This document shows, piece by piece, positions 2,363 to 57,510 of a DNA stretch of 64,000 nt (its first letter is position 1; every line of letters begins with the position of its first letter). The translations under genes were made by a program, and so were the position numbers. This DNA comes from Desulfatirhabdium butyrativorans DSM 18734. GTDB lineage: Bacteria > Desulfobacterota > Desulfobacteria > Desulfobacterales > Desulfatirhabdiaceae. The DNA lies in NCBI RefSeq assembly GCF_000429925.1, contig NZ_KE386985.1, forward strand, positions 347,739 to 411,738, in the 5' to 3' direction. The notes under the pieces were generated by a model. The model ran no database searches and had not been told where the DNA came from. It worked only from the letters and a program-made list of their open reading frames with translations.

Positions 2363-2684
2363 GAATGAGGACCGAAAGGGTGGTTGATAAGAAAGACGGT
2401 TTTCCAAACCGATTTGGCGAATGTTGTTGGATTTTCTTTATCATAACCGGGGATGCAGGAGCAAGGTCAACGGGGCAGAATTACAGGAAAGCGCCTTTTT
2501 GGGCAGCCGATATTCATACGAGGCTGCTTCAGACTGGTTTCCGCTGCATCGCAACACGACCTGCCCTCCGGTACGGGGCGGGCAAAAAACGGGATTTTGC
2601 AGGAATCGCCCATGCAACCGGGGCGGCACCCCGGTTAATGAAAGTCGCAGGAGCAAGATAGAAAAAATGGGAGCCATCCGCTTT

Positions 2685-2822: not shown

Positions 2823-3150
2823 ATGGAGCAAATTCCTTAGGAGTATGGCGACATGACAGTCGCCTTACGGTTCTGCCGACTGCCCACTTTCGGAGGAATG
2901 GCGCATCATGACGCAGAAAGACTTTTGCATTTGGCCCATATGTGATAAGGCAGGTACGATACGATTTTGCCGGTAATGGTTGATTTTTTCCATGTGGTTT
3001 TGAGGCGGCATTCCGCTGAAGCAAATCGTTTTTTTCGATGACGTTGTGCGGAGGAAAGCTGGCCACTAAATGGTCGTAATGCCGCCGCCTCCGGGGATGA
3101 AAATCCGGTCGTCATTCCGGCGAAAACTGGGGGACGAGCTTGGGGGATTT

Positions 3151-3257
3151 CGATTACGATTACGACAACGACAACGATAGCGATAACGACAACGATAACG
3201 ACAACGATAACGACAACGATAACGACAACGAATATGGATACGAATACGACAACGATT
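3151..3257. repeat. GACAAC/GATAAC hexanucleotide array
   Basis: About 18 hexamers of the type GAYWRC (GACAAC, GATAAC, GATTAC, GATAGC) run in series. In one frame they read Asp-Asn/Asp-Tyr repeats, and on the other strand mostly valine codons. Sister arrays are at 21595-21691 and 25611-25710. The sequence just after this array (about 3257-3293) is also shared with the one after the 21.6 kb array, so the array moved or was copied with its flank. It ends ~57 bp before the start codon of the TPP-enzyme gene. Confidence 0.95.
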
Positions 3258-3313
3258 ATCCCCAGCGTTGCGAGGAGAGGTATTTTCAAGAGAAAACGAT
3301 AGGAGAAAACCGG

Positions 3314-6536: not shown

Positions 6537-6564
6537 GTAGGGGCGACCGGCCGGTCGCCCCTAC
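6537..6564. repeat. Perfect 28 bp palindrome, GTAGGGGCGACCGG arms
   Basis: The arm GTAGGGGCGACCGG is followed directly by its exact reverse complement. Related palindromes are at 13703-13730 (12 bp arms, GGCG centre) and 25481-25509 (arm GTAGGGGCGGGTTT, one-base centre). The outer GTAGGGGCG...CGCCCCTAC is constant and the inner bases differ but stay self-complementary, showing selection for, or copying of, the fold. Confidence 0.95.
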
Positions 6565-13360: not shown

Positions 13361-13452
13361 TGGGCGATAGGCGATAGGCGATAGGCAATGGGCAATAGGC
13401 TATGGGCTATGGGCTATGGGCTATGGGCTATGGGCTATGGGCTATGGGCTAT
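13361..13452. repeat. Heptanucleotide tandem array, GGGCTAT type
   Basis: The array starts as GGCGATA units, grades through GGCAATG/GGCAATA forms and ends with about eight identical GGGCTAT heptamers. It begins within a few bases after the stop codon of the large flavoprotein gene. The gradient from diverged to identical units suggests recent expansion at the right end. Confidence 0.95.
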
Positions 13453-13594
13453 CGCTTGGACGGAAATTCCTCATTCGGAGCGGCAAGCCGCTTGAGGGCA
13501 GGCTGTTTGACGACGTGAAATGGGTGATGCCGTCAAGCATCAAAATCGGAGTCAACCGTCCATATCCTGACTCCTGATTTCTGACTCCTATTTA

Positions 13595-13677
13595 GTGTCT
13601 GGACGGAAAACCCGTTTTGGGTACAACCTGCCCGCAGACGACGCGCTGCTCCGAATAGGGGTTTTCCGTTCAGACAT
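13595..13677. repeat. ~83 bp inverted-repeat element, copy 1
   Basis: The left end TGTCTGGACGGAAAACCC and right end GGGTTTTCCGTTCAGACA are near-perfect reverse complements. The interior contains ACAACCTGCCCGCAG and CTGCTCCGAATAGG. It is almost identical to the copy at 30966-31048, in the same orientation. No open reading frame is inside and no transposase is nearby. Confidence 0.92.
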
Positions 13678-13702: not shown

Positions 13703-13730
13703 GTAGGGGCGACCGGCGGGTCGCCCCTAC
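13703..13730. repeat. 28 bp palindrome, GTAGGGGCGACC arms
   Basis: The arm GTAGGGGCGACC, centre GGCG and reverse-complement arm form a strong hairpin. It is the same family as 6537-6564, and in both places it is preceded by a short GGCAGT-like heptamer remnant and CTGTAG, so the two repeats travel together. Confidence 0.93.
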
Positions 13731-15447: not shown

Positions 15448-17865
15448 ATGGAAAAACGGGAGAATCCGACAACCCAACCCCGCATCGGTGTATATGTCTG
15501 TAACTGCGGCGCCAACATCGGCAAGACCGTCGATTGCGAACAGGTGGCGAAAACGGCGGCAGGCATCGCGGATGTCAAGATCGCCAGAAGCGTCCCCTAT
15601 GCCTGTTCCGAGCCTGGCCAGCAAAGCATCCGGGAAGACATTCTGGAGCAGAACCTGGATCGGGTGGTGGTGGCTTCCTGCTCACCGCGGTTGCATGAGC
15701 CCACTTTCCGCCAGATGGTTCAGGAAGCGGGGCTCAATCCCTACGTGCTGGAAATGGCCAATCTGCGGGAACAATGCAGTTGGGTGCACATGGACCAGTC
15801 CGAGGCCGCAACCGAAAAGGCCATGGATTTGACGAAAATGGCCATATCGCGGGCCCGAACCCTTCAGGCGCTGACGCCCGAGAAGCAGGCCCTGGTCAAA
15901 CGGACGCTGGTGATCGGCGGTGGCGTGGCCGGGATTCAGGCGGCGCTCGATCTTGCGGACAACGGGTATGACGTGGTGCTGGTGGAAAAGAAACCATCCA
16001 TCGGCGGGGTCATGGCCACCCTGGATAAAACCTTTCCCACCATGGACTGCTCCATCTGAATCCTCGGGCCGAAAATGACGGATGTCGGTCGACATCCCCG
16101 GATCAAGCTGTATACCCTGAGTGAAGTGCGTGAAGTCAAAGGTTCCGTTGGAAATTTTACGGTTCGCATCCTTAAAAAGGCGCGCTACGTGGATGAAAAG
16201 GCGTGCACGGCCTGCGGAGACTGCGCTGCGGTCTGCCCGGTGGTGCGGCCCGATGCCTTCAATTATGGCCTTTCGTCCCGAAAAGCCATCTATTCCCCTT
16301 TTCCCCAGGCGGTCCCTTCCGCATACGCCATCAACGTGAACGAGTGCCTGGGACACAACCCGGCGGTGTGCGCCAAGTGCGTTGAAGCCTGCAAGAAAGG
16401 CTGCATCAATTTCCACATGTCCGATGAGGAAATCACCGAAACGGTGGGCACCATCGTGGTGGCGACCGGTATGGAAACCTATGATCCAACGGAAATGGAT
16501 GAATACGGTTATACCCGATTTGAAAACGTCCTCACCAGCGTCGAATTCGAGCGGCTTGTCAATGCGGGAGGCCCCACAAAGGGTGAGCTGCTGCGCCCGA
16601 CAGATCGAAAACGGCCGGCATCCGTCGGTTTTGTCCAGTGCGTCGGATCCCGGTCTGCCAAAAAAGGAGGCGCCTACTGCTCCAATGTCTGCTGCATGAA
16701 TACGATCAAGAGCACGCTGGTTCTGAAGGAGCATTATCCGGATATGGACGTCAAGGTCTTTTATATCGATATCCGGGCGTTCGGCAAGGGATTCGAGGAT
16801 CTCTACAGCAGGAGCCGGCGGCTGGGCGTCCATTACCTGCGGGGGCTTCCGGGGACGGTCGAGGAGACGCCGGACAGGGGGCTCCGGGTGGCGGTTGAAA
16901 ACACGGCCCTGGGAAAAATCGAGTTCTTCGATCTCGACATGCTGGTGCTGGCTGTCGGGATCCAGCCATCCGAGAGCACCCGGACGCTGCAGGAAATGCT
17001 CGGGCTGCAACTGACGCCGGATGGGTTTTTTCTGGAGGCCCATCCCAAGCTGCAACCCGTGGATGCGGCAACCCGCGGCATTTTTTTCGCCGGATGCGCC
17101 GAAGGGCCCAAGGACATCAAGGACAGCGTCACCCAGGCATCCGCTGCCGCAGCCAGGGCCATCCGGCTGATGCACACGGGGGAGATCCTGACCGAGCCGA
17201 TCACATCGGAAATCATCGCGGAAAAATGCAAATCCTGCGGCAAATGCGCCGAGGTCTGCCCATACAATGCCATTACCGTGGATGTGAAAAAGAAGACCCC
17301 CGCAATCGTCCATACGGCCGCCTGTGCGGGGTGCGGGACCTGTGCCGCCGAATGTGCCTTCGATGCCATCGTCATGAACCATTTTACAGACCGACAGATT
17401 CTCGATCAGGTGGACGCCCTGCTGACCGAAAAGCCGGAGGAGAAAATCCTCGCGTTCGCCTGTAACTGGTGCTCCTATGCCGGGGCCGATTACGCCGGGG
17501 TGTCCAGGTGTCAGTATCCGCCCAATGTGCGCCTGATCCGCACCATGTGCTCCGGCAGGGTGGATGAAAAATTCATCTGGGATGGTTTCTTGAAAGGTGC
17601 TCCCGTCATCCTGGTGAGCGGGTGCCATATCGGGGACTGCCATTACATCGATGCCAACCACTGGACCGAAAAACGCATTGCCAAAATCCACCGGAAAATG
17701 GCCAAACTGGGCATCCGGCAGGAGCGGCTGCAACTGGCGTGGATCAGCGCGGCCGAAGGCATGCGGTTTGCGGCCGTCATGAACGACCTGGAAGTTCTGA
17801 GAAAGAGCGTGAGCCGGGAGGAAATCGCGGAGACCATCCGCATTTTGCAGAAAGACAGCGCCTGA
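15448..17865 (+). CDS. hdrA: HdrA-MvhD fusion, apparent selenoprotein (in-frame TGA at 16057-16059 read as Sec204)
   Basis: Two abutting open frames, 15448-16056 and 16060-17865, are in the same phase and separated by one TGA. Together they give an 805-residue HdrA with a C-terminal MvhD domain. The segment before the TGA ends LDKTFPTMDCSI and the one after begins ILGPKMTDV. In HdrA this is continuous as DCSxCILxPK, so the TGA replaces a conserved cluster-binding cysteine. A SECIS-like hairpin follows at 16080-16097. Other features are FAD fold VIGGGVAGIQAALDLA (about 155), CTACGDCAAVCP (about 254), the CVGSR...CSNVCC region, two ferredoxin motifs CKSCGKCAEVCP and CAGCGTCAAECA, and C-terminal FACNWCSYAG (MvhD). 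ATG 15448 has GAGAG seven bases upstream; ATG 15442 is the alternative. A nonsense mutation is possible but much less likely. Confidence 0.87.
16060..16103 (+). promoter_or_regulatory. Bacterial SECIS-like element downstream of the hdrA TGA
   Basis: Immediately after TGA 16057-16059, GGATGTC (16080-16086) and GACATCC (16091-16097) form a perfect 7 bp stem with a GGTC loop. ATCC (16060-16063) can pair with GGAT (16100-16103) as a lower stem. The apical loop is 27 bases past the TGA and begins with G, resembling the GGUC core of the E. coli fdhF element. It lies inside the coding sequence, as bacterial SECIS elements do. Confidence 0.75.
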
Positions 17866-17902
17866 ACGAAAACCCCGTTTATCGCCGAACCTGAGGCGGC
17901 TC
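17859..17902. repeat. Partial inverted-repeat element forming both ends of hdrA and fumC
   Basis: GCGCCTGAACGAAAACCCCG and the following CCGAACCTGAGGCGGCTC match the left half and middle of the element at 34098-34190. Its TGA is the stop codon of hdrA, and on the other strand it supplies the last residues and stop codon of fumC. The right half is missing. Confidence 0.75.
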
Positions 17903-21512: not shown

Positions 21513-21594
21513 ATATGCCGAATCAATATTCATTGCGGGATTCGCCACCTCCGGCCATCATTCAGACGAAAGCCGGTGCGGCGGGGCGAGAGAA

Positions 21595-21691
<97 letters not shown>

Positions 21692-21820
21692 CATCCCCAA
21701 GGTTGGAGAGAGAAGTATTTTCATGATTTTCCCCCATGCAGCCGGGGCTGAACCCCGGTTAATGAAAATCGATGGAGCAACTTCCTTAGGAGTGTGGCGA
21801 CATGACCGCCGCCCTACCAC

Positions 21821-21927
21821 ACTGCCCACTGCCCACTGCTGACTGCCCACTGCTGACTGCCCACTGCTGACTGCCCACTGCTGACTGCCCACTGCTGACT
21901 GCCCACTGCCGACTGCCCACTGCTGAC
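21821..21927. repeat. Heptanucleotide array, TGCCCAC/TGCTGAC (14 bp higher-order unit)
   Basis: Seven-base units alternate between ACTGCCC and ACTGCTG, giving a 14 bp period repeated about seven times. Read on the other strand it is the GGGCAGT/CAGCAGT type seen in short form at 6514-6535, 25334-25360, 54126-54151 and inside murD (43088-43121). Confidence 0.95.
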
Positions 21928-22259
21928 TTTCTTAGGAAAAGTTGACAATCTCCTTCTTGGAGTAGTAGAGTGCGTGCAATCGGGGCATGAAGCCTCTTTG
22001 GAATACCGGTGGTTTTGTGGCGGAGTCGTGCTCGAATCTCTCGGATCAAGTGCGATGGTCTCCCAAAAAGTCGCGGAAGATCCCATTTCGCCTTGATTAC
22101 GGCTTTTTGTGAAATCATCAAGCTGTTACCGGAGCGGACGCCAGCCTGAGAACCCCCAGGAATTTCCTGCATCGGAACGATGCCTTGCGACACCATTTAT
22201 CTATCGGTTGCCCATGGAGGGCATCATTCCATTCTTTTTTCGATGAAAGGAGAACGACG

Positions 22260-25509: not shown

Positions 25510-25610
25510 TCCCGGTTGATGAAATGCGCCATGGCGACTTTCGTAGGAATGGGAACGGCGCCTCCGCCGGGGGCATTGGGGAAAATGGCCCGGGAAGGAT
25601 TCAACGGGTG

Positions 25611-25710
<100 letters not shown>

Positions 25711-25737
25711 TAAGAGGGCGCCAAGCGGAGACGGAAA

Positions 25738-28422
25738 ATGAACGAAGCGCTGAACCGGGAATATATCGAATCGCAGTACCTTCTCTGGAAGACGGCGCCC
25801 GAGCGGCTTCCGGAGGACTGGCGGTATTTTTTCGAGGGATTTGAAATGGGACTGGCCAGGAGCCAGACCCCGGTATGCGACGAGGCGGCTCTTGCCAGGC
25901 AGGCTCGCGTAGAAGCCCTCGTTCACCGGTACCGGGACATGGGGCACATGCTGGCCTGCATGGATCCGCTGACTGCCTGCCCCATATCCCATCCCTTGCT
26001 CGAACCCGCCGCTCTCGGCATCGGTGCCGACGAAGAAGACTTGCCGGTTCGTTTTGCCGTGTCCACATTTTCCGGTACAACGACGATTCGGGACCTGGTA
26101 AAAGCTCTGAAAGACACGTACTGCCGGACCATCGGCGTGGAATACATGCATCTGCAGAATCCCGAAGAGCGGGAATGGCTTCAGGGCCGTATGGAGCCAA
26201 GCCGCAACCGTACCGCTTTGGATGGGGAAACCCGGAAACGGATTCTTCGAAAACTCTTGGAGGCGGACAGTTTTGAGCGTTTCCTGAACAAAACCTATGT
26301 GGGTGTGACCCGGTTTTCGATTGAAGGGGCCGATACCCTGGTCCCGGTGCTCGATCGGCTGTGTAGCCGGGCTGCGGCTGGGGGATGCGGTGAAGTCATT
26401 CTCGGCATGGCTCATCGAGGCAGGCTCAATGTGTTGGCTCATATCTTCGAAAAACCCTATGAAGACATTTTTATCGAATTCGAGCACTGCTACGATCCGG
26501 CGCATGTGAGCGGTTACGGAGATGTCAAATACCACAATGGGTACCTGAATGACATCACCCATGAAGGGCATCCGCTGCGGTTGTTCATGGTTCCCAATCC
26601 GAGTCATCTCGAGGCCGTCGATCCGGTCGTGGAAGGGATTGCCCGGGCCAGACAGGATGCGCTCGGTTCCGTTGACCTGGCGCTTCCGGTGTTGATTCAC
26701 GGGGATGCCGCCTTCGCCGGTCAGGGGATCGTGGCGGAAGTGCTCAACATGAGCCAGCTTGAAGGGTATCGAACAGGCGGCACCCTGCATATCGTCGTCA
26801 ACAACCAGATCGGTTACACCACCTTGCCTGCGGATGCCCGTTCGAGCCGATATGCAACGGATGTGGCCAAGGGAATCATGGCCCCGATTTTCCATGTTCA
26901 CGGAGAGGACCCCGAGGCTGCGTGCTATGCAACTACCCTTGCGCTTGACTATCGAAACCGCTTTCACAAGGATGTCGTCATCGATTTGGTCTGCTACAGG
27001 CGACATGGCCACAACGAGGGAGACGATCCGTATTTCACCCAGCCGCAAATGGTGGAGCGCATCCGGAGCCGCCCGACGGTTGCGGCTGTTTATGAAGAAG
27101 TGCTCCGCCAGGCGGGCGTGATCGAAGCGGAGGAGGTGAGCAGGCAGCGCGAAGATATCGGGAACCGGCTCGATGCCGCCTATCAATCGGTTCATGGAAC
27201 GGTCTGTGCGTTTCCGCAGCCCCGCTTTTACGAACATCTGCAAGAGCAGAAGGCTTCGGCGAATGCGCCAGGCGCAATGCCCGTTTCCGAAGACCAATTG
27301 CTTCGGTACGCAAGGACCATTTGTACCGTTCCGGAAGGTTTTATGCCCCCTCCCAAGCTGGTTGCCCTTCTTCAAAAACGGCTTCAGGCAATGGAGACGG
27401 ACACGGGCATCGACTGGGCGTTTGCCGAGACACTGGCTTTCGCATCGCTTCTGGATACCGGCATTTCGGTAAGGCTGAGCGGGCAGGATGTGCGGCGCGG
27501 CACGTTCAGCCAGCGGCATTGCGCGTTGACGGACATCCATACCGAAAAGCGGATTTTCCCGCTCCAGGCTGTGGCGAGGCCGCCTGCCGTTTTCCAGGCC
27601 TTTGACAGTTTGCTGGCCGAACCCAGTGTTCTGGGCTTCGAATATGGCTATTCCCTGCTGCGCCCCGATTGCCTCACCATATGGGAGGCCCAGTTCGGGG
27701 ATTTCGTCAACAATGCCCAGTCCATCATCGATCTGTTCATCGCCAGCGGCGAGACCAAGTGGCATCAGCAGAGCCCTCTTGTGGTCCTGCTGCCTCATGG
27801 GCTGGAAGGACTCGGTCCGGAGCATTCGAGCGCCAGACCCGAGCGGCTGTTGCAGCTTTGCGCCGGAAACAACATTCAAGTCTGCCAGCCCACCACACCG
27901 GCCCAGTTCTTTCATCTGCTGCGGGGCCAGGCAACGGGTTTTTCGGACCGGAAACCGCTCTTCGTGCTGACGCCCAAGAGCCTGCTTCGGGCGGCCCAGG
28001 CCGTATCCAGGAGGGAAGCATTCGCGGGCGGTTCTTTCGAGGATGTTTTGGTGGATGGGCCGGGGGGAAAGACGGAGCGGGTGCTGCTGTGCAGCGGGAA
28101 AATCGCCTATGAGCTGATCGAAAGGTGCAAAAGCCGGGGAAGAGACGATGTGGCCATCGTTCGGATGGAGCGGCTCTATCCCTTCGATGGAGCGGCCTTT
28201 GCCGCAAAAACCGCCTCCATTTCGTCAGCATCCCGCTGGTTCTGGGTTCAGGATGAGCCCGAGAACATGGGCGCTTACCGGTTCATGGCGCCGCTCATCG
28301 AGGCAATCATCGGGCAAAAGCTGCGCTATGCCGGAAGGGACGCCTCGCCATCGCCAGCCACTGGCTATCCGAGAGTTTTTAAAATGGAACAGGAGGCCGT
28401 TTTCGAGAAAGCTTTGGCCTGA
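25738..28422 (+). CDS. sucA: 2-oxoglutarate dehydrogenase E1 component
   Basis: 894 residues matching E1o across its length. The N-terminal segment NREYIESQYLLWKTAPERLP (split) is like the E2-binding arm. Later come GMAHRGRLNVLAHIF (about 221), VKYHNGYL, PNPSHLEAVDPVV, the TPP motif HGDAAFAGQG...VNNQIGYTT (about 320-357), RRHGHNEGDDP and the C-terminal RLSGQDVRRGTFSQRH. It decarboxylates 2-oxoglutarate using TPP. E2 (sucB) and E3 (lpd), which usually follow, are absent here. The same window carries ferredoxin-dependent Kor for the same substrate. The start has GGCGCC...CGGAGACGG upstream rather than a clean Shine-Dalgarno sequence. Its last 44 bases overlap the convergent mobA-like gene. It may be a stand-alone 2-oxoglutarate decarboxylase, or its partners may lie elsewhere. 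Confidence 0.92.
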   Translation: MNEALNREYIESQYLLWKTAPERLPEDWRYFFEGFEMGLARSQTPVCDEAALARQARVEALVHRYRDMGHMLACMDPLTACPISHPLLEPAALGIGADEEDLPVRFAVSTFSGTTTIRDLVKALKDTYCRTIGVEYMHLQNPEEREWLQGRMEPSRNRTALDGETRKRILRKLLEADSFERFLNKTYVGVTRFSIEGADTLVPVLDRLCSRAAAGGCGEVILGMAHRGRLNVLAHIFEKPYEDIFIEFEHCYDPAHVSGYGDVKYHNGYLNDITHEGHPLRLFMVPNPSHLEAVDPVVEGIARARQDALGSVDLALPVLIHGDAAFAGQGIVAEVLNMSQLEGYRTGGTLHIVVNNQIGYTTLPADARSSRYATDVAKGIMAPIFHVHGEDPEAACYATTLALDYRNRFHKDVVIDLVCYRRHGHNEGDDPYFTQPQMVERIRSRPTVAAVYEEVLRQAGVIEAEEVSRQREDIGNRLDAAYQSVHGTVCAFPQPRFYEHLQEQKASANAPGAMPVSEDQLLRYARTICTVPEGFMPPPKLVALLQKRLQAMETDTGIDWAFAETLAFASLLDTGISVRLSGQDVRRGTFSQRHCALTDIHTEKRIFPLQAVARPPAVFQAFDSLLAEPSVLGFEYGYSLLRPDCLTIWEAQFGDFVNNAQSIIDLFIASGETKWHQQSPLVVLLPHGLEGLGPEHSSARPERLLQLCAGNNIQVCQPTTPAQFFHLLRGQATGFSDRKPLFVLTPKSLLRAAQAVSRREAFAGGSFEDVLVDGPGGKTERVLLCSGKIAYELIERCKSRGRDDVAIVRMERLYPFDGAAFAAKTASISSASRWFWVQDEPENMGAYRFMAPLIEAIIGQKLRYAGRDASPSPATGYPRVFKMEQEAVFEKALA

Positions 28423-29050
28423 TGCGGGCGGGAATCATGGGTTTCCGTTCAGGCACCATGAAGTTAAGCGCCCACGCATAGTCCTCTGGCGTATCAATAT
28501 CTTTCAGGATGAATGGATCCCCCACAGGCACATCCGTTGCGTCATCCTGATGATTCCTCAGAAACATGCGAAGGCCGCCACGTCCATGCCAGGATTGAAT
28601 GGCTTTGACATGGATGGCCGAGATCAGGGGCGGATGCCCTCGGCGTTCTTGAAAAGAAGGGTAATAAACGCTTGATTTACCCTGTTGAAAAGCCTTCCGC
28701 AAGGCAATCAGCGTTTCGCATCTGACCAGGGGAATATCCACCGGATGAATGAAAAAGCCGCTGCATCCGGGAGACAAATCGACGATGCCTGCGACAACCG
28801 ATGAGAACATGCCTGTTTGAAAATCCGGATTGAAAACCACCCTGGCCCCGAAACGCTCGGCAGGCGGTATCAGCTCATCGCCGCGATAACCGGCTACTAC
28901 CCGGATATCCGAAATTCCCACAGACCGGTACAGCGACAGGACATGTTCCAGGAGTGTTTTGCCGGCCAACGGCAACAGCGGCTTGAAGCCGCCGATCCGG
29001 GAGGACATTCCGGCCGAGAGGACGATGGCGCTCAGGTTGGATCGTTCCAT
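28379..29050 (-). CDS. MobA-like NTP transferase family protein
   Basis: 223 residues beginning MERSNLSAIVLSAGMSSRIG; the LSAGxSxRxG motif (about 10-20) followed by KPLLPLAGKTLLEHVL is the nucleotide-binding signature of the MobA/MocA/GlmU-type nucleotidyltransferase fold. HPVDIPLV (about 105) carries the metal-binding Asp region. Family members load GMP or CMP on molybdopterin, or activate sugars. The MocA-like layout would suit CTP:molybdopterin cytidylyltransferase, but the substrate is not proven. I start at ATG 29050, one base past the exbD stop, making it the last gene of a tonB-exbB-exbD unit, an unusual partner. Its 3' end overlaps sucA on the other strand by 44 bp. Confidence 0.8.
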   Translation of the reverse strand: MERSNLSAIVLSAGMSSRIGGFKPLLPLAGKTLLEHVLSLYRSVGISDIRVVAGYRGDELIPPAERFGARVVFNPDFQTGMFSSVVAGIVDLSPGCSGFFIHPVDIPLVRCETLIALRKAFQQGKSSVYYPSFQERRGHPPLISAIHVKAIQSWHGRGGLRMFLRNHQDDATDVPVGDPFILKDIDTPEDYAWALNFMVPERKPMIPARIRPKLSRKRPPVPF

Positions 29051-30027: not shown

Positions 30028-30768
30028 TCAATCGCCGGTATTCAGTTGAAATCGGATTTGCAGCAGGGCAAGACAGGGGATGGGACGGCCTTGCCGGACA
30101 GCAGGCGCGAATCGCGATTGTCGCACTGCCCGCAAGGCTTCTTCGTCAAAGCCGTGACCCGCCGATTGAACCACTTCCGCACTGGTCAAATTCCCGCTTG
30201 CATCGATGGCCAGACGAAGGATCACCGTTCCTTCCACGCCCATTCGCCGCGCAATTCTGGGGTATTGGGGAAGGCTGCGGTGAACGAATTGAGGCCCGCC
30301 AATGGCGCCGATTTTCGATTCGATGGGGGGACCTGCCGAGGCAACGGAGACAGGGCCGGAGGATGCGGTTGTCGAAGCAGCGGCGGATGGCTGTGAGACG
30401 ATTCCCGGCTCAGGGTCTGGCGCAGGCTCCTTGCCCGTTTGCGGGGAGAATTCTTCGGATTCTTCGGGTTTCGGCAAAGGAGTCGGTTCCGGTTGCTTTT
30501 CACGAGCAGGCTGTACGGTCTGTTTGGCGACCTTGACTGCGGTTTTTCTTGCGACAGGAAGTGGTTTTAGGGGTGTGCTCACCCGGGGCGGTTCCGTCAC
30601 CATGGGCGTGATGGGGTCTTGCGGTGGTGGCGGCGGCGGCGGATCCGTAATGACCAGTTGAATCGTTTCGGGCATGGGCTCTCGTGAGGCCTTCGGCGTG
30701 AGCGGCAGACAAAAAATCAACCCATGAGCCACAAGGGCCAGCAGGATGCATTGCCAGGTTTTGATCAT
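30028..30768 (-). CDS. tonB: TonB energy transducer
   Basis: 246 residues. The N-terminal membrane anchor is MIKTWQCILLALVAHGLIFC with a conserved His15 inside the helix. Residues about 40-130 are a Pro-rich spacer with Pro-Glu/Pro-Lys runs (PPPPPPPQDP and PEPTPLPKPE), as expected for a periplasm-spanning TonB. Residues about 160-246 are the TonB C-terminal domain (LPQYPRIARRMGVEGTVILR...VQSAGHGFDEEALRAVRQSRFAPA). ATG 30768 is chosen because the hydrophobic anchor begins there; an upstream in-frame extension has no anchor-like features. A structured leader precedes it. Which receptor it serves is unknown; cobalamin or metal-chelate receptors are plausible from the cbi genes nearby. Confidence 0.92.
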   Translation of the reverse strand: MIKTWQCILLALVAHGLIFCLPLTPKASREPMPETIQLVITDPPPPPPPQDPITPMVTEPPRVSTPLKPLPVARKTAVKVAKQTVQPAREKQPEPTPLPKPEESEEFSPQTGKEPAPDPEPGIVSQPSAAASTTASSGPVSVASAGPPIESKIGAIGGPQFVHRSLPQYPRIARRMGVEGTVILRLAIDASGNLTSAEVVQSAGHGFDEEALRAVRQSRFAPAVRQGRPIPCLALLQIRFQLNTGD

Positions 30769-30850
30769 GAAAATCGACTCCGGTTTTCGCAGGCGATCTG
30801 CAAATCGTTGCAGAGGAGAATCCCGATTCACCTCAGGCGCGGCCCCCGGG

Positions 30851-30906
30851 AAAAATGAAAAGCCACGAAAGGGTCCTCCTGCTGGAAGAGAGCGCCTTCG
30901 TGGCTT
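30851..30906 (-). terminator. Terminator-like hairpin upstream of tonB
   Basis: On the minus strand AAGCCACGAA (30906-30897) pairs perfectly with TTCGTGGCTT (30869-30860), with an inner TCTTCC-AGCA-GGAGGA stem. The tract TTCATTTTT follows (to 30851). The form is that of a Rho-independent terminator ~90 bases before tonB. A preceding hairpin at 30927-30952 (GTTCGTTGG/CCAGCGAAC) could belong to the same leader fold. Confidence 0.6.
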
Positions 30907-30965
30907 GTTGATTGGCAACGATAAGCGTTCGCTGGCTGTGATACCAACGAACATCATGCTATTTT

Positions 30966-31048
30966 GTGTCTGAACGGAAAACCCGTTTTGGGTACAACCT
31001 GCCCGCAGGCGACGCGCTGCTCCGAATAGGGGTTTTCCGTTCAGACAC
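30966..31048. repeat. ~83 bp inverted-repeat element, copy 2
   Basis: The ends GTGTCTGAACGGAAAACCC and GGGTTTTCCGTTCAGACAC are exact reverse complements over 19 bases. The interior is nearly identical to copy 1 at 13595-13677 and in the same orientation. This is the best-preserved copy. Confidence 0.95.
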
Positions 31049-31169
31049 TATTTTGGATTCAGCGAACGGCTTCAGCCGATCATTGATTCAATTTGTAGAT
31101 CATCGGGCGAGCCGCTGTCAAGCACCATTTGGGATTTGGGGTGTAACGCCTTTCCCATAGGTCGGAGGT

Positions 31170-32499: not shown

Positions 32500-32567
32500 G
32501 CCCTTTTTATCGCACGGAATCTTTGCCTGTTCAGGTCCACGAAACAGGGTTTTCAACATGATCGATA

Positions 32568-32765
32568 CCAGGCAGGTCTTCTGACTTTCGATTCATCCTA
32601 CCGGCAGCGCCTTCCCGATCCATGGCGTTCGATCAGTGGCTCTAAAGCTGCTTTCGTCCTCGAATACAGCGGCGGGCCCGTCCCCGATTCTCACGGGGTT
32701 CCCTCTTTGCGGCTCCCTTGACGGGGAGCACCTGTTCGATGGTTTTCAGCTAACCACAAGAAAGG
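32568..32765 (-). ncRNA. Cobalamin riboswitch
   Basis: Read on the minus strand the region has the class hallmarks in order: an AGGTGCTCCCCGTCAAGGG start, AAGAGGGAACCC, GTGAGAATCGGGG, CGCCGCTGTA and the B12 box AAGTCAGAAGACCTGCC near the 3' end. A terminator follows 70 bases later. It controls the small gene and cbiK. Confidence 0.95.
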
Positions 32766-34015: not shown

Positions 34016-34383
34016 GTCTGATTGCATTTGAAACGAACGGAGCCGCCGCAAATTGGGTGCGGCCTGGTCGATAACCCCCGCATTCTTTCCCTTCTGAACA
34101 GTGCCTGAACGAAAACCCCGATTTTGTGTGACCCGAGCCTGCCCGCAGGCGGCTCATTCCTCCGAATAGGGGGGGCGCTCAGGCACTGTTTTGATTCTTC
34201 GTGCCCTTCATCTGTCACGCCTCGACCCGTTTCATCCATCCTGATGTTTTTCTCTCCGTTCAACTTCTGGAAGCCTTGAGAAAGAAGTTTTCCACATTTT
34301 GTTTTGTTCAAATAATTTCTGTTGACTTCCATCGAAAAATGGGTTTGTATCCATCCAAAGTGGAATAAAGTGGATGGAAATGG
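34016..34383. other. Gap before the dcw cluster
   Basis: Contains an inverted-repeat element (34098-34190) shortly after bamD, where it could end or stabilise the bamD transcript, and the mraZ promoter and operator at the right end. No gene was seen. Confidence 0.75.
34098..34190. repeat. Inverted-repeat element, copy 3 (diverged)
   Basis: The outer ends AACAGTGCCTGAACG and CGCTCAGGCACTGTT are reverse complements with one mismatch. The interior keeps GCCTGCCCGCAGGC and TCCGAATAGG. About 40% of positions outside the ends differ from copies 1 and 2, yet the ends still pair, so changes in the arms are compensated. Confidence 0.85.
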
Positions 34384-42135: not shown

Positions 42136-42267
42136 GTGGTGCCTGAACGGAAAACCCTGTTTGGGTTACAACCTGAGCCGGAGGGCAGACTGTTTCACGC
42201 TGTATCGCAAAATTGCCTGCCAACAGGCGGCGCGTTGCTCCAAATAGCGGTTTTTCGTCCAGCCACT
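42136..42267. repeat. Inverted-repeat element, copy 4, with ~45 bp insertion
   Basis: Left GTGGTGCCTGAACGGAAAAC and right GTTTTTCGTCCAGCCAC are imperfect reverse complements. The interior has the family words ACAACCTG and GGCGCGTTGCTCCAAATAGC, plus an extra AGGGCAGACTGTTTCACG-type segment also found in the decayed copy at 13.46-13.51 kb. It fills the whole mraY-murD gap inside the otherwise overlapping dcw cluster. Confidence 0.85.
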
Positions 42268-42281
42268 ACATGAAGGATGAC

Positions 42282-43790
42282 ATGGATTCTCCAGTTGATT
42301 TTCCAATTCACGGCCGGCATTTTGTCGTGGTGGGTCTTGGGCTGAGCGGGGTTGCCGTATGCCGGTTCCTGCTGGATAAAGGCGCGAGGCTCTATGCGAC
42401 GGATTTGTCCGCTGCGGATGGCATCCGCCAGGCGGCTCGGGAACTCCAGGCGCTGGGGGCGGAGATCGAACTGGGCAGCCATTCGGAGGCAAAATTTTGC
42501 TCGGCCGATGTCATCGTCCTCAGCCCGGGCGTTCCGCATGACCTCGCTCCGATCGAAGCGGCCCGCACGCGGGGCGTGCCCGTCATGGGCGAGATCGAAC
42601 TGGCAGCCCGGTTCGCGAATGCCCCGATTCTCGCCATTACCGGGACCAACGGCAAGACGACCGTCACGACGCTGATCGGCAACATGCTGCGCCGGTCCGG
42701 CAAGACGGTGTTTGTCGGGGGCAATATCGGTGATCCGCTGATCGGTTTTGTGAGTCGAAACGAAACGGCCGATTGGCTGGTTCTCGAAGTCAGCAGCTTC
42801 CAGCTCGATACCATCGGGAGCTTCCGGCCCCATATCGCCGTGCTGCTCAACATTACCGAAGACCATCTGGACCGGTATTCGGGCATGAGCGACTATGCCC
42901 GATCCAAGTTCCGGATTTTCGAAAATCAACGGCCGGACGACTGGGCCATCCTCAATGGGCAGGACCGCTACATTCGGGAGCTTGCCGGTACGATCCCGTC
43001 CCGCCGGTTGTGGTTCAACGTGGCGATAGCGGAAGGGGCATGCGTTTGCGAGGAGGGGATTTCCTGGATACTGCCTGATATTCCTACGGCAGTGGGCGGT
43101 GGGCAGTCGGCAGTCGGCAGTACCATCCCGGCCACTACCCTTCTTCGGGATGCAGCCTCGACTGCATGGGGGATTCCTGCGGAAGGGATGCGGCGGCAAA
43201 CTCGCCAGAAATCCGACGATCGGATGTTCCAAATTCCGGAAAAGGACATTCTGTTACCGGGGAGGCACAACCGCGAAAATGTCGCAGCCGCGATGATGGC
43301 CAGCCTGATTGCCGGGGCGACCGCGGAGGCTGTCCGGGAGGAAATCCGCTCTTTTCCCGGTCTGGGGCATCGGATCACGACGGTCGGGTGTGTGGACGGG
43401 GTCTGTTTCGTCGATGATTCCAAGGCGACCAATGTGGATGCCGTCATCCGGGCGCTCTCCTGTTTTTCGAAAAATGTCGTGCTGATTCTCGGCGGCAGGG
43501 ACAAGATGAGCCCGTTTCACCAGTTGCGGGATGCCGTTTCCGCTCATGTGCGTCTTGCCATAGTCCTGGGCGAGTCGGCACCGGCGATTGTGGAAGCCAT
43601 TGGCGATCTGGTTCCGGCCATTCGGGTTTCCAGCATGGAAGAGGCGGTAACGAAAGGGTTTCAAAACGCCAGATCCGGGGATGTGGTGTTGCTGTCTCCG
43701 GCTTGCTCCAGTTTCGACATGTTTACCAGTTATGCCCACAGGGGGCAGGTCTTTGCCGATGCTGTCAGGAGGCTTGCACATGATCGATGA
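42282..43790 (+). CDS. murD: UDP-MurNAc-L-alanine:D-glutamate ligase MurD with in-frame repeat insertion
   Basis: 502 residues. The N-terminal Rossmann start is VVVGLGLSGVAVCRF, the ATP loop TGTNGKTT lies at about 120-127, then ITEDHLDRY, LPGRHNRENVAAA, DDSKATNVDA and LSPACSSFDMF at the C-terminus, all MurD. It is about 40-45 residues longer than usual. The surplus (about residues 268-308, bases 43083-43200) is translated from intergenic-type repeats: four GGCAGT/GGCGGT heptamers, then a reverse copy of the hairpin element. The insert sits just before the LPGRHN motif, in a surface loop region, and keeps the frame open, so the enzyme may still work. ATG 42282 has GAAGGA upstream; ATG 42270 is the alternative. 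Confidence 0.92.
   Translation: MDSPVDFPIHGRHFVVVGLGLSGVAVCRFLLDKGARLYATDLSAADGIRQAARELQALGAEIELGSHSEAKFCSADVIVLSPGVPHDLAPIEAARTRGVPVMGEIELAARFANAPILAITGTNGKTTVTTLIGNMLRRSGKTVFVGGNIGDPLIGFVSRNETADWLVLEVSSFQLDTIGSFRPHIAVLLNITEDHLDRYSGMSDYARSKFRIFENQRPDDWAILNGQDRYIRELAGTIPSRRLWFNVAIAEGACVCEEGISWILPDIPTAVGGGQSAVGSTIPATTLLRDAASTAWGIPAEGMRRQTRQKSDDRMFQIPEKDILLPGRHNRENVAAAMMASLIAGATAEAVREEIRSFPGLGHRITTVGCVDGVCFVDDSKATNVDAVIRALSCFSKNVVLILGGRDKMSPFHQLRDAVSAHVRLAIVLGESAPAIVEAIGDLVPAIRVSSMEEAVTKGFQNARSGDVVLLSPACSSFDMFTSYAHRGQVFADAVRRLAHDR
43083..43200 (+). repeat. Dispersed repeat inserted in frame within murD
   Basis: GTGGGCGGTGGGCAGTCGGC and further CGGCAGT units (43088-43121) match the heptamer strings at 25334-25360 and 54126-54151. 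GGATGCAGCCTCGACTGCAT and GGGGGATTCCTGCGGAAG (about 43150-43190) match the reverse complement of the hairpin element at 2766-2822. Together they replace nothing recognisable in MurD and add roughly 40 codons. Confidence 0.85.
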
Positions 43791-54113: not shown

Positions 54114-54422
54114 GCGGCGCCTGCGGGCAGCGGGCGGTCGGCAGTCGGCAGTGTTCCGTCACCTCGGCGAAATCCAGCCTTTGGCATCAGGGGGCCATCA
54201 TCTGTTGAGAAAACCGGGTTCCTTCCGCCAAAGCCGGAATGTCGCTGGGGCGAGTTTAGAAGAAATAGGATCCATCCGCTTTTCTTCTGACTTCTGACTC
54301 CTGACTTCCGCCGGAATCACCCGATTGGCTCGGGGCAGCGGTTGCCTGCCCGCAGGCGCCGTGCTGCTCCAAATAGAGGATTTTTGTTCAGGCGCCAAGG
54401 TGAGAGAGAAGGAGAGACAAAC
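54114..54422. other. Repeat-filled gap before the moaB/mogA gene
   Basis: Holds GGCGGT/CGGCAGT heptamers (54126-54151), TGACTTC heptamer remnants (about 54285-54308) with their usual lead-in, and the right half of an inverted-repeat element (54341-54396). A strong ribosome-binding site (AAGGAG) for the next gene follows at the end. No gene is supported. Confidence 0.75.
54341..54396. repeat. Inverted-repeat element, right half only (copy 5)
   Basis: GCCTGCCCGCAGGCGCC, then GCTGCTCCAAATAGAGG, then TTTTTGTTCAGGCGCC matches the right portion of copies 1-4. The left arm is missing, so this copy is truncated. Confidence 0.75.
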
Positions 54423-56493: not shown

Positions 56494-57510
56494 TCAGAAA
56501 GCCCGCTCATACGGTTTGGGCCAGGGAAGGCTCACACCATGCTTTTTGGCTTCAAGCAGCGGAAAAAACGGATTGCGGAGCAGTTCACGGCCGAGCGCGA
56601 CCAAATCCGCCCGGTTGTTGCCGATGGTTTCCTCGATCATCTCCAGTGTGGTGATCAGCCCCACCGCAATGGTGGGTATCATACATGCTTTGCGGATGAT
56701 TTCGGCAAAAGGGATCTGATAGCCGGGAAAGCTGTGGGGCATGACAGGCGTGACGCCGCCGGAGCTGACGTGGATGAGATCCACTTCCGCCTTGATCGTT
56801 TCGATGATCTGGATCATTTGATCGACGGTCATGCCACCCGGCACGTAATCGTGGGCCGATACCCGAAGGAACAGGGGTTTTTCGGTCGGCCACCGGGTGC
56901 GAACGACCCTGACGACCTCCTGCAGAAAGCGGGAGCGGCCTTCGAGATCGATGCCGTATGTGTCTTCCCGCTGATTGCTTACGGGTGAAAGGAACTGGTT
57001 GATCAGATATCCGTGGGCGCCATGAATTTCCACCACATCGAAACCGGCTTCCAATGCCCGCCCGGCGGCTGCGGCAAAAGCGTGTGTCACGGATGCAATG
57101 TCATCAAGGCTCATTTCCGCCGGGTTCCGATATGATTCATCCGGGCTGAAAATGATGGCGCTGGGTGCATATATCTTCTCAACGCTTGCGACACACTTGC
57201 GTCCGGCGTGATTCAACTGGATACCGATTTTGGCCCCGAACCGGTGAACCTGATCGACAAGGCGGGCGAAGGCGGGTATCTGTTCATCCTTCCATAATCC
57301 GAGGCAGTTGTCGGATATTCTTCCCTCCGGAAGGATGCCGGTTGCCTCTACAATGATGAGGCCCGCTCCGCCCAGTGCGCGCGCACCGTAGTGCAACAGG
57401 TGAAAGTCGGTCGGAATGGCATCGGTGGCGCTGTACATGCACATGGGCGGCATGACAATGCGGTTCTTGAGCGCCAGATCCTTTATTTGAAACGGTTCGT
57501 ATGTTTTCAT
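56494..57510 (-). CDS. NADH:flavin oxidoreductase, old yellow enzyme family (YqjM-like)
   Basis: 338 residues, FMN-binding TIM barrel. Landmarks are LKNRIVMPPMCMYSAT (about 15-30), IQLNHAGRKC (about 100), GFDVVEIHGAHGYLINQFLSP (split, about 165-185) carrying the HGAHGYL motif, and SNQREDTYG. The C-terminal GRELLRNPFF is also typical. The Cys26-Tyr28 pair (MCMYSA) is like YqjM thermophilic-type ene reductases. It would reduce activated double bonds with NAD(P)H. ATG 57510 follows GGAGCAGAGG; an upstream in-frame extension is not needed. Confidence 0.9.
   Translation of the reverse strand: MKTYEPFQIKDLALKNRIVMPPMCMYSATDAIPTDFHLLHYGARALGGAGLIIVEATGILPEGRISDNCLGLWKDEQIPAFARLVDQVHRFGAKIGIQLNHAGRKCVASVEKIYAPSAIIFSPDESYRNPAEMSLDDIASVTHAFAAAAGRALEAGFDVVEIHGAHGYLINQFLSPVSNQREDTYGIDLEGRSRFLQEVVRVVRTRWPTEKPLFLRVSAHDYVPGGMTVDQMIQIIETIKAEVDLIHVSSGGVTPVMPHSFPGYQIPFAEIIRKACMIPTIAVGLITTLEMIEETIGNNRADLVALGRELLRNPFFPLLEAKKHGVSLPWPKPYERAF

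Follow-up and report, generated by a model that had tools for sequence, protein, structure and literature searches.

A high-copy MITE family with TANNTA target sites in Desulfatirhabdium butyrativorans, likely derived from an ISNCY-type insertion sequence

The short inverted-repeat elements dispersed through the genome of Desulfatirhabdium butyrativorans are very probably MITEs that arose by internal deletion from an insertion sequence. Its DDE transposase (NCBIfam ISNCY, NF033593) would recognise the ends GTGYCTGAACGRAAA, insert the element into TANNTA and thereby duplicate these 6 bases. This reading builds on direct observations. The ends, the duplications and a series of deletions were seen in the elements themselves, relatives have full-length elements with these ends, and this genome retains two end-bearing transposase remnants. 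The family is very widespread and of a kind already known. The first-pass annotation had proposed MITEs, and the target duplications, the deletion series and the likely parent transposase bear this out.

The window, the whole stretch of DNA analysed, spans 64 kb, positions 347739-411738 of contig C66. All seven copies that had been listed there are genuine by covariance model, BLAST or both, and an eighth was added at 2522-2597. The features are the following.

2522-2597, minus strand: partial copy of the 311-bp form, overlooked before (E 6.6e-13 to the 311-bp form)
13454-13506, minus strand: decayed partial MITE (BLAST E 2.5e-9; below model detection at E<=1)
13595-13677, plus strand: MITE, 83-bp form (covariance model 102 bits)
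17860-17899, plus strand: half MITE (BLAST E 4e-4; below model detection at E<=1)
28432-28456, plus strand: single terminal repeat, weak (E 0.011)
30960-30965, no strand: left target duplication TATTTT of the copy at 30966-31048 (flank comparison)
30966-31048, plus strand: MITE, 83-bp form (covariance model 113 bits)
31049-31054, no strand: right target duplication TATTTT of the same copy (flank comparison)
34101-34186, plus strand: diverged MITE, copy 3 of the first-pass annotation, between a YfiO-like gene and mraZ (covariance model 35 bits)
42139-42266, plus strand: MITE, 127/128-bp form, here 128 bp (covariance model 53 bits)
54342-54393, plus strand: half MITE upstream of a MoCF_biosynth-domain gene (BLAST; the model gives 54308-54395, E 4e-4)
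56869-56893, no strand: single terminal repeat, weak (E 0.004)

The copy at 30966-31048 sits between two minus-strand genes, one of which (30028-30957) has a TonB C-terminal domain. The flanks of the copy at 13595-13677 read TATTTA and TACATC, so its duplication is not intact. The half copy at 17860-17899 lies at the convergent ends of a FlpD-domain gene and a fumarate-lyase gene, and the copy at 42139-42266 is found in a cell-wall cluster with a Glycos_transf_4 gene (mraY by position) on one side and a murD-like gene on the other.

The window also holds other repeats. A tandem 7/14-bp array of GGCTATG/GGCGATA (13361-13458) directly precedes the decayed copy, and 7-bp arrays of the CTGACTT/CTGCCCA type lie at 2676-2772, 21806-21942 and 54281-54308. 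A 12-bp array, CGACAACGA..., occurs at 3115-3280, 21562-21762 and 25587-25752. A second dispersed repeat, CCCCCATGCAGCCGGGGCTG..., is about 82-86% alike at 2606-2656, 2781-2888, 21730-21837 and, inverted, 43146-43185. The palindrome GTAGGGGCGACCGGCCGGTCGCCCCTAC is present in two near-identical copies (6537-6564 and 13703-13730). The only Rfam family above its gathering score in the window was a cobalamin riboswitch (32554-32748, minus strand, 108.5 bits); none was found for the MITE.

The intact form is 83 bp long, running from GTGYCTGAACGRAAAACCC... to ...GGGTTTTYCGTTCAGRCAC, and has inverted ends of 19 bp. When the 4.48-Mb host genome (73 contigs) was searched with the end GTGYCTGAACGRAAAAC, allowing up to 2 mismatches, 449 matches were obtained against 1 for the reversed control. 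Chance is therefore excluded, and the family is not confined to the few copies of the window. A covariance model built from 17 copies gave at least 119 matches (E<=0.01), some of them single ends of longer forms; this is a lower bound, since the search scored 150 of 3769 candidates.

From the fetched stretches, 57 distinct paired elements were assembled: 36 of 82-90 bp, 10 of 127-128 bp, 1 of 180 bp and 10 of 284-313 bp. As had been claimed from the first copies, they combine terminal inverted repeats of this length with the lack of a transposase: none of the 57 (82-313 bp) carries such a gene, and even the long forms are too short for one. The sizes form a series of 311, 297, 284, 127, 89 and 83 bp. 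Aligned to a 311-bp copy, most copies of 83-84 bp share one common 228-bp deletion and most of 127 bp one common 184-bp deletion, and those of 297 and 284 bp show small deletions; the breakpoints vary by a few bases at ambiguous short repeats, and the 89-bp copies aligned less consistently. Since the deletions are common within size classes, a few deletion events were probably each multiplied. Such a pattern matches what non-autonomous elements should show when they are moved in trans, and each deletion form would have been amplified separately. One element at contig ends of the relative G007 continued beyond base 108 into CAGACCTCGTTAATTTGAGTCG... and was considered as a parent body. It was rejected, because this part is an unrelated inserted repeat, another high-copy family that had inserted into one MITE copy (L109-L122).

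The elements duplicate their target. In related genomes their flanks are direct repeats of 6 bp that match exactly and follow the pattern TANNTA. Across the 113 loci taken from a scan of the genome contig collection, 64 distinct paired elements were counted and 54 of them have an exact 6-bp duplication, where shuffling gives 6.8 on average; from the 120 exact end matches, the 29 unpaired near a contig end, the 22 unpaired elsewhere and the pairs seen twice do not enter into the 64. In the host genome, at length 6, the flanks of 8 of the 36 short copies were exact and those of 12 had one mismatch, giving 20 of 36 with at most one; the corresponding figures were 2 of 10 in the 127-bp class and 3 of 10 in the longer class. 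When lengths of 6-8 and a shift of one were allowed, 34 of all 57 host elements had 0-1 mismatch against about 5 by chance. The first 30 loci had been the top matches of the 83-bp query, which biases duplication rates taken from them towards intact copies. We conclude that the copies in the host genome are older than those elsewhere.

The likely parent is an insertion sequence of about 1.9 kb that encodes an NF033593 (ISNCY) DDE transposase and carries the same ends in relatives. A full-length transposon with these ends had been named as a thing to look for, and it was found there: end pairs lie 1886 bp apart at two loci, and the 1886-bp element at L170 encodes an intact transposase of 491 aa, which scores 495.4 bits to NF033593 (cut-off 325) and also passes the cut-off of Pfam DDE_Tnp_1. 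In homologues within the order, these ends lie about 200 bp beyond the gene. Both ends were present at 25 of 35 loci examined, 1.67-1.91 kb apart, where L214 and L293 are probably one locus, leaving 24 distinct full-length elements. TANNTA was found on both sides in 17 of the 25 and an exact duplication in 8; unlike the MITEs, 17 of the 25 have unequal flanks, a point against the proposed parentage. At L273-L302 the flanks of full-length elements often differ and yet both are TANNTA. After the end core, 21 of 32 downstream ends have AAACC, compared with none of 27 upstream ends, and the host MITEs have AAACC at both ends, as if they had been assembled from two downstream ends.

Residues D380 and E431 (P0001 numbering) are invariant in 11 aligned sequences, the host fragment included, and are predicted from motifs to be catalytic. 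In all 8 split copies inspected (L289, L290, L291, L292, L294, L297, L302 and L207), the transposase gene breaks into two frames near residue 147-156, where 8-9 A follow one another. This suggests slippage or programmed frameshifting, although a homopolymer sequencing error is possible. We take the insertion sequence to be possibly of the ISDol1 group. In excerpts of the digIS paper (PMC8147514), IS1202 and ISDol1 are named as ISNCY subfamilies.

The host genome itself contains only two fragments of an ISNCY-type transposase, aa 333-487 and 430-487. Both are followed by the end GTGCCTGAACGAA about 220-230 bp further on, with 96% similarity between the two right-end regions. Thus an element bearing such ends once lived and died in this genome. 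A blastn comparison of the remnants' right-end region with the 57 MITEs gave no match to any of them. The ends of the MITEs are common to the autonomous elements, the plasmid copy described below included, but further inwards they are unlike the local remnants. Because remnants and MITEs have only the outer end in common (about GTGCCTGAACGRA), the direct parent of the MITEs may be a sister element that is now lost. Amplification of the MITEs would have ended in this genome, since an intact transposase was not found in it. At L271 (3796-3881), a MITE directly adjoins a dead-transposon end, and the TATTTA between them is common to both. The first two host DDE_Tnp_1 genes (L124 and L125) were rejected as parents; they are without the ends.

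The end is found far beyond this genome. Of 389 sampled genomes of the order, 132 have TAGTGYCTGAACGRAAACCC with at most one mismatch, and by genus it is found in 55 of 150; the control gave three matches. The exact end pattern occurred in at least 113 stretches of the genome contig collection (80 listed), where about 2 matches are expected by chance as estimated from base counts. Among the matches listed are Desulfobacterales and other Desulfobacterota, Scalindua, KSB1, Nitrosomonas, Parabeggiatoa, Alteromonadaceae, Bacteroidetes, Verrucomicrobia, Nitrospinia, Troglogloeales and the isolate Thiorhodococcus minor. Judged from these sequences, the same end signal appears to occur in bacteria of many phyla, most of the end-positive records being MAGs, in which binning errors are possible. 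In viral contigs the end was nearly absent (1 stretch), a search of phages for the transposase gave no match, and a search of plasmids with the 83-bp element gave none either. The transposase is also encoded, at 49.5% identity, on a conjugative plasmid of Methylotuvimicrobium alcaliphilum 20Z, an isolate; the two ends there lie about 1.9 kb from each other and are flanked by TATATA and TAAGTA. A conjugative plasmid is a plausible vehicle for the spread of the element.

End and transposase tend to occur together. The end was present in 33 of 56 genomes with a close transposase against 99 of 333 others (p 5e-5), a comparison that ignores relatedness among the genomes and is partly circular, because the search pattern also matches the end of the insertion sequence itself. 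Genomes with only a distant subfamily (at most 35% identity) were not enriched (5 of 18). No transposase match was found in 94 of the 132 end-positive genomes, which counts against the proposed parentage.

The placement of the elements at gene ends, which had been pointed out in the first-pass annotation, is real. With gene positions from a home-made hexamer gene finder, not a standard annotation, 56 of 57 elements are mostly intergenic, compared with 14% of bases and 36% of TANNTA sites on C66, the contig of the window. For 15 of the 56, a predicted gene 3' end is no more than 12 bp away, against 2 of 50 intergenic TANNTA sites; this null is weak, because insertions that supply their own stop would earlier have lain inside genes. 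There were 16 cases in which a reading frame reaches or enters an element and ends there. The stop is at the junction TA/G in 4 of them, at a TGA inside the end in 2, at the triplet (TAG or TAA) that opens the duplication six bases ahead of the element in 4, and elsewhere up to 12 bases upstream in 6. Entered from either side, the combination of TANNTA and GTGYCTGA closes two of the three frames in about 10 bp, and therefore much of the gene-end pattern is explained without an RNA role. An insertion near the 3' end of a gene could create a stop at the junction TA/G or at the TGA of the terminal repeat and so truncate the gene cleanly. The intergenic placement as a whole is best explained by selection against insertions into genes together with the TA-rich target.

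The elements could be MITEs by origin, some of which were co-opted as operon terminators or RNA-stability elements. Their location after stop codons and between operon genes fits this, as does the strong predicted fold of the 83-bp form (-45.8 kcal/mol, z -7.8). However, the arms do not covary, and the sole terminator-like match within the two intact copies of the window is a short stem of 5 pairs, so that we regard co-option as unlikely.

The stronger proposal, that the repeats are maintained by selection for a hairpin that stabilises or terminates transcripts, can draw on the same fold and on the nearly exclusive intergenic location with its share of gene 3' ends. It had been suggested from the first copies together with a covariance model as its test, and on this test it failed. 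With right arms shuffled among 36 copies, 614 +/- 3.4 Watson-Crick cells were obtained in the arms compared with 619 observed, and the covariation score of the 21 copies of 83 bp was reached by 83 of 500 shuffles. In the same 21 copies, identity to the consensus was 0.935 in the arms and 0.948 in the loop, so neither covariation nor relative arm conservation supports an RNA role. The paired changes pointed out in the diverged copy at 34101-34186 are no evidence of RNA selection: its ends have the common C-variant of the terminal repeat, and there is no excess covariation over 36 copies. Inverted ends form a hairpin without any RNA function; the complementarity of the arms is to be expected where one transposase site is present twice. 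A transposon also fits the target duplications and the partial copies. The selected hairpin was consequently dropped and is in our view very improbable.

That the elements are REP-type palindromes mobilised by a Y1 (RAYT) transposase, as the earlier label 'REP-like' would imply, is very unlikely: they are palindromic, intergenic and of high copy number, but they have clear 6-bp target duplications where such repeats should have none, measure 83-311 bp and share their ends with a DDE transposase element.

With the MITE reading, this repeat family gains a parent transposase family, a rule for its target and a signature; its end is present in roughly a third of the genomes sampled in the order. 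The signature eases tests of horizontal spread, of stop-codon capture and of MITE survival after loss of the enzyme. More tentatively, and with the odds somewhat against it, a single ISNCY-type transposon lineage with a near-invariant end and a TANNTA target may have seeded MITEs in many phyla, partly via conjugative plasmids. Its ends would suit landing at gene 3' ends with a self-written stop, and the MITEs would outlive the enzyme in most genomes.

A literature search, with most subscription journals outside its range, brought up no publication about MITEs of ISNCY elements. Neither 'ISNCY' nor 'stop codon' occurs in the main text of a MITE review (PMC10969869), and excerpts of PMC9208149, PMC3852290 and PMC11448079 contain no ISNCY-derived MITE, the MITE in the last being assigned to ISL3. 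The likely parent resembles ISNCY insertion sequences in a transposase that passes the NF033593 cut-off, in the size of about 1.9 kb, in the inverted ends and in the short duplication; the MITE repeats themselves differ in being without a transposase. Correia, ERIC and other bacterial MITEs are short, palindromic, intergenic, of high copy number and without a gene, and the elements described here are alike in all of this. Their ends and transposase family are different, however, and they duplicate the 6 bp of TANNTA in place of TA. REP and BIME sequences are palindromic and intergenic as well, but they are associated with Y1 transposases and are not known to make a target duplication, which the present elements do. 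A possible parallel, as described in excerpts of the report (PMC4853749), is the hupL MITE of Candidatus Thiomargarita nelsonii, an element of about 205 bp in many copies for which its authors found no parent: its 19-bp inverted repeat and high copy number are like those of the present family, and its direct repeat of 10 bp is different.
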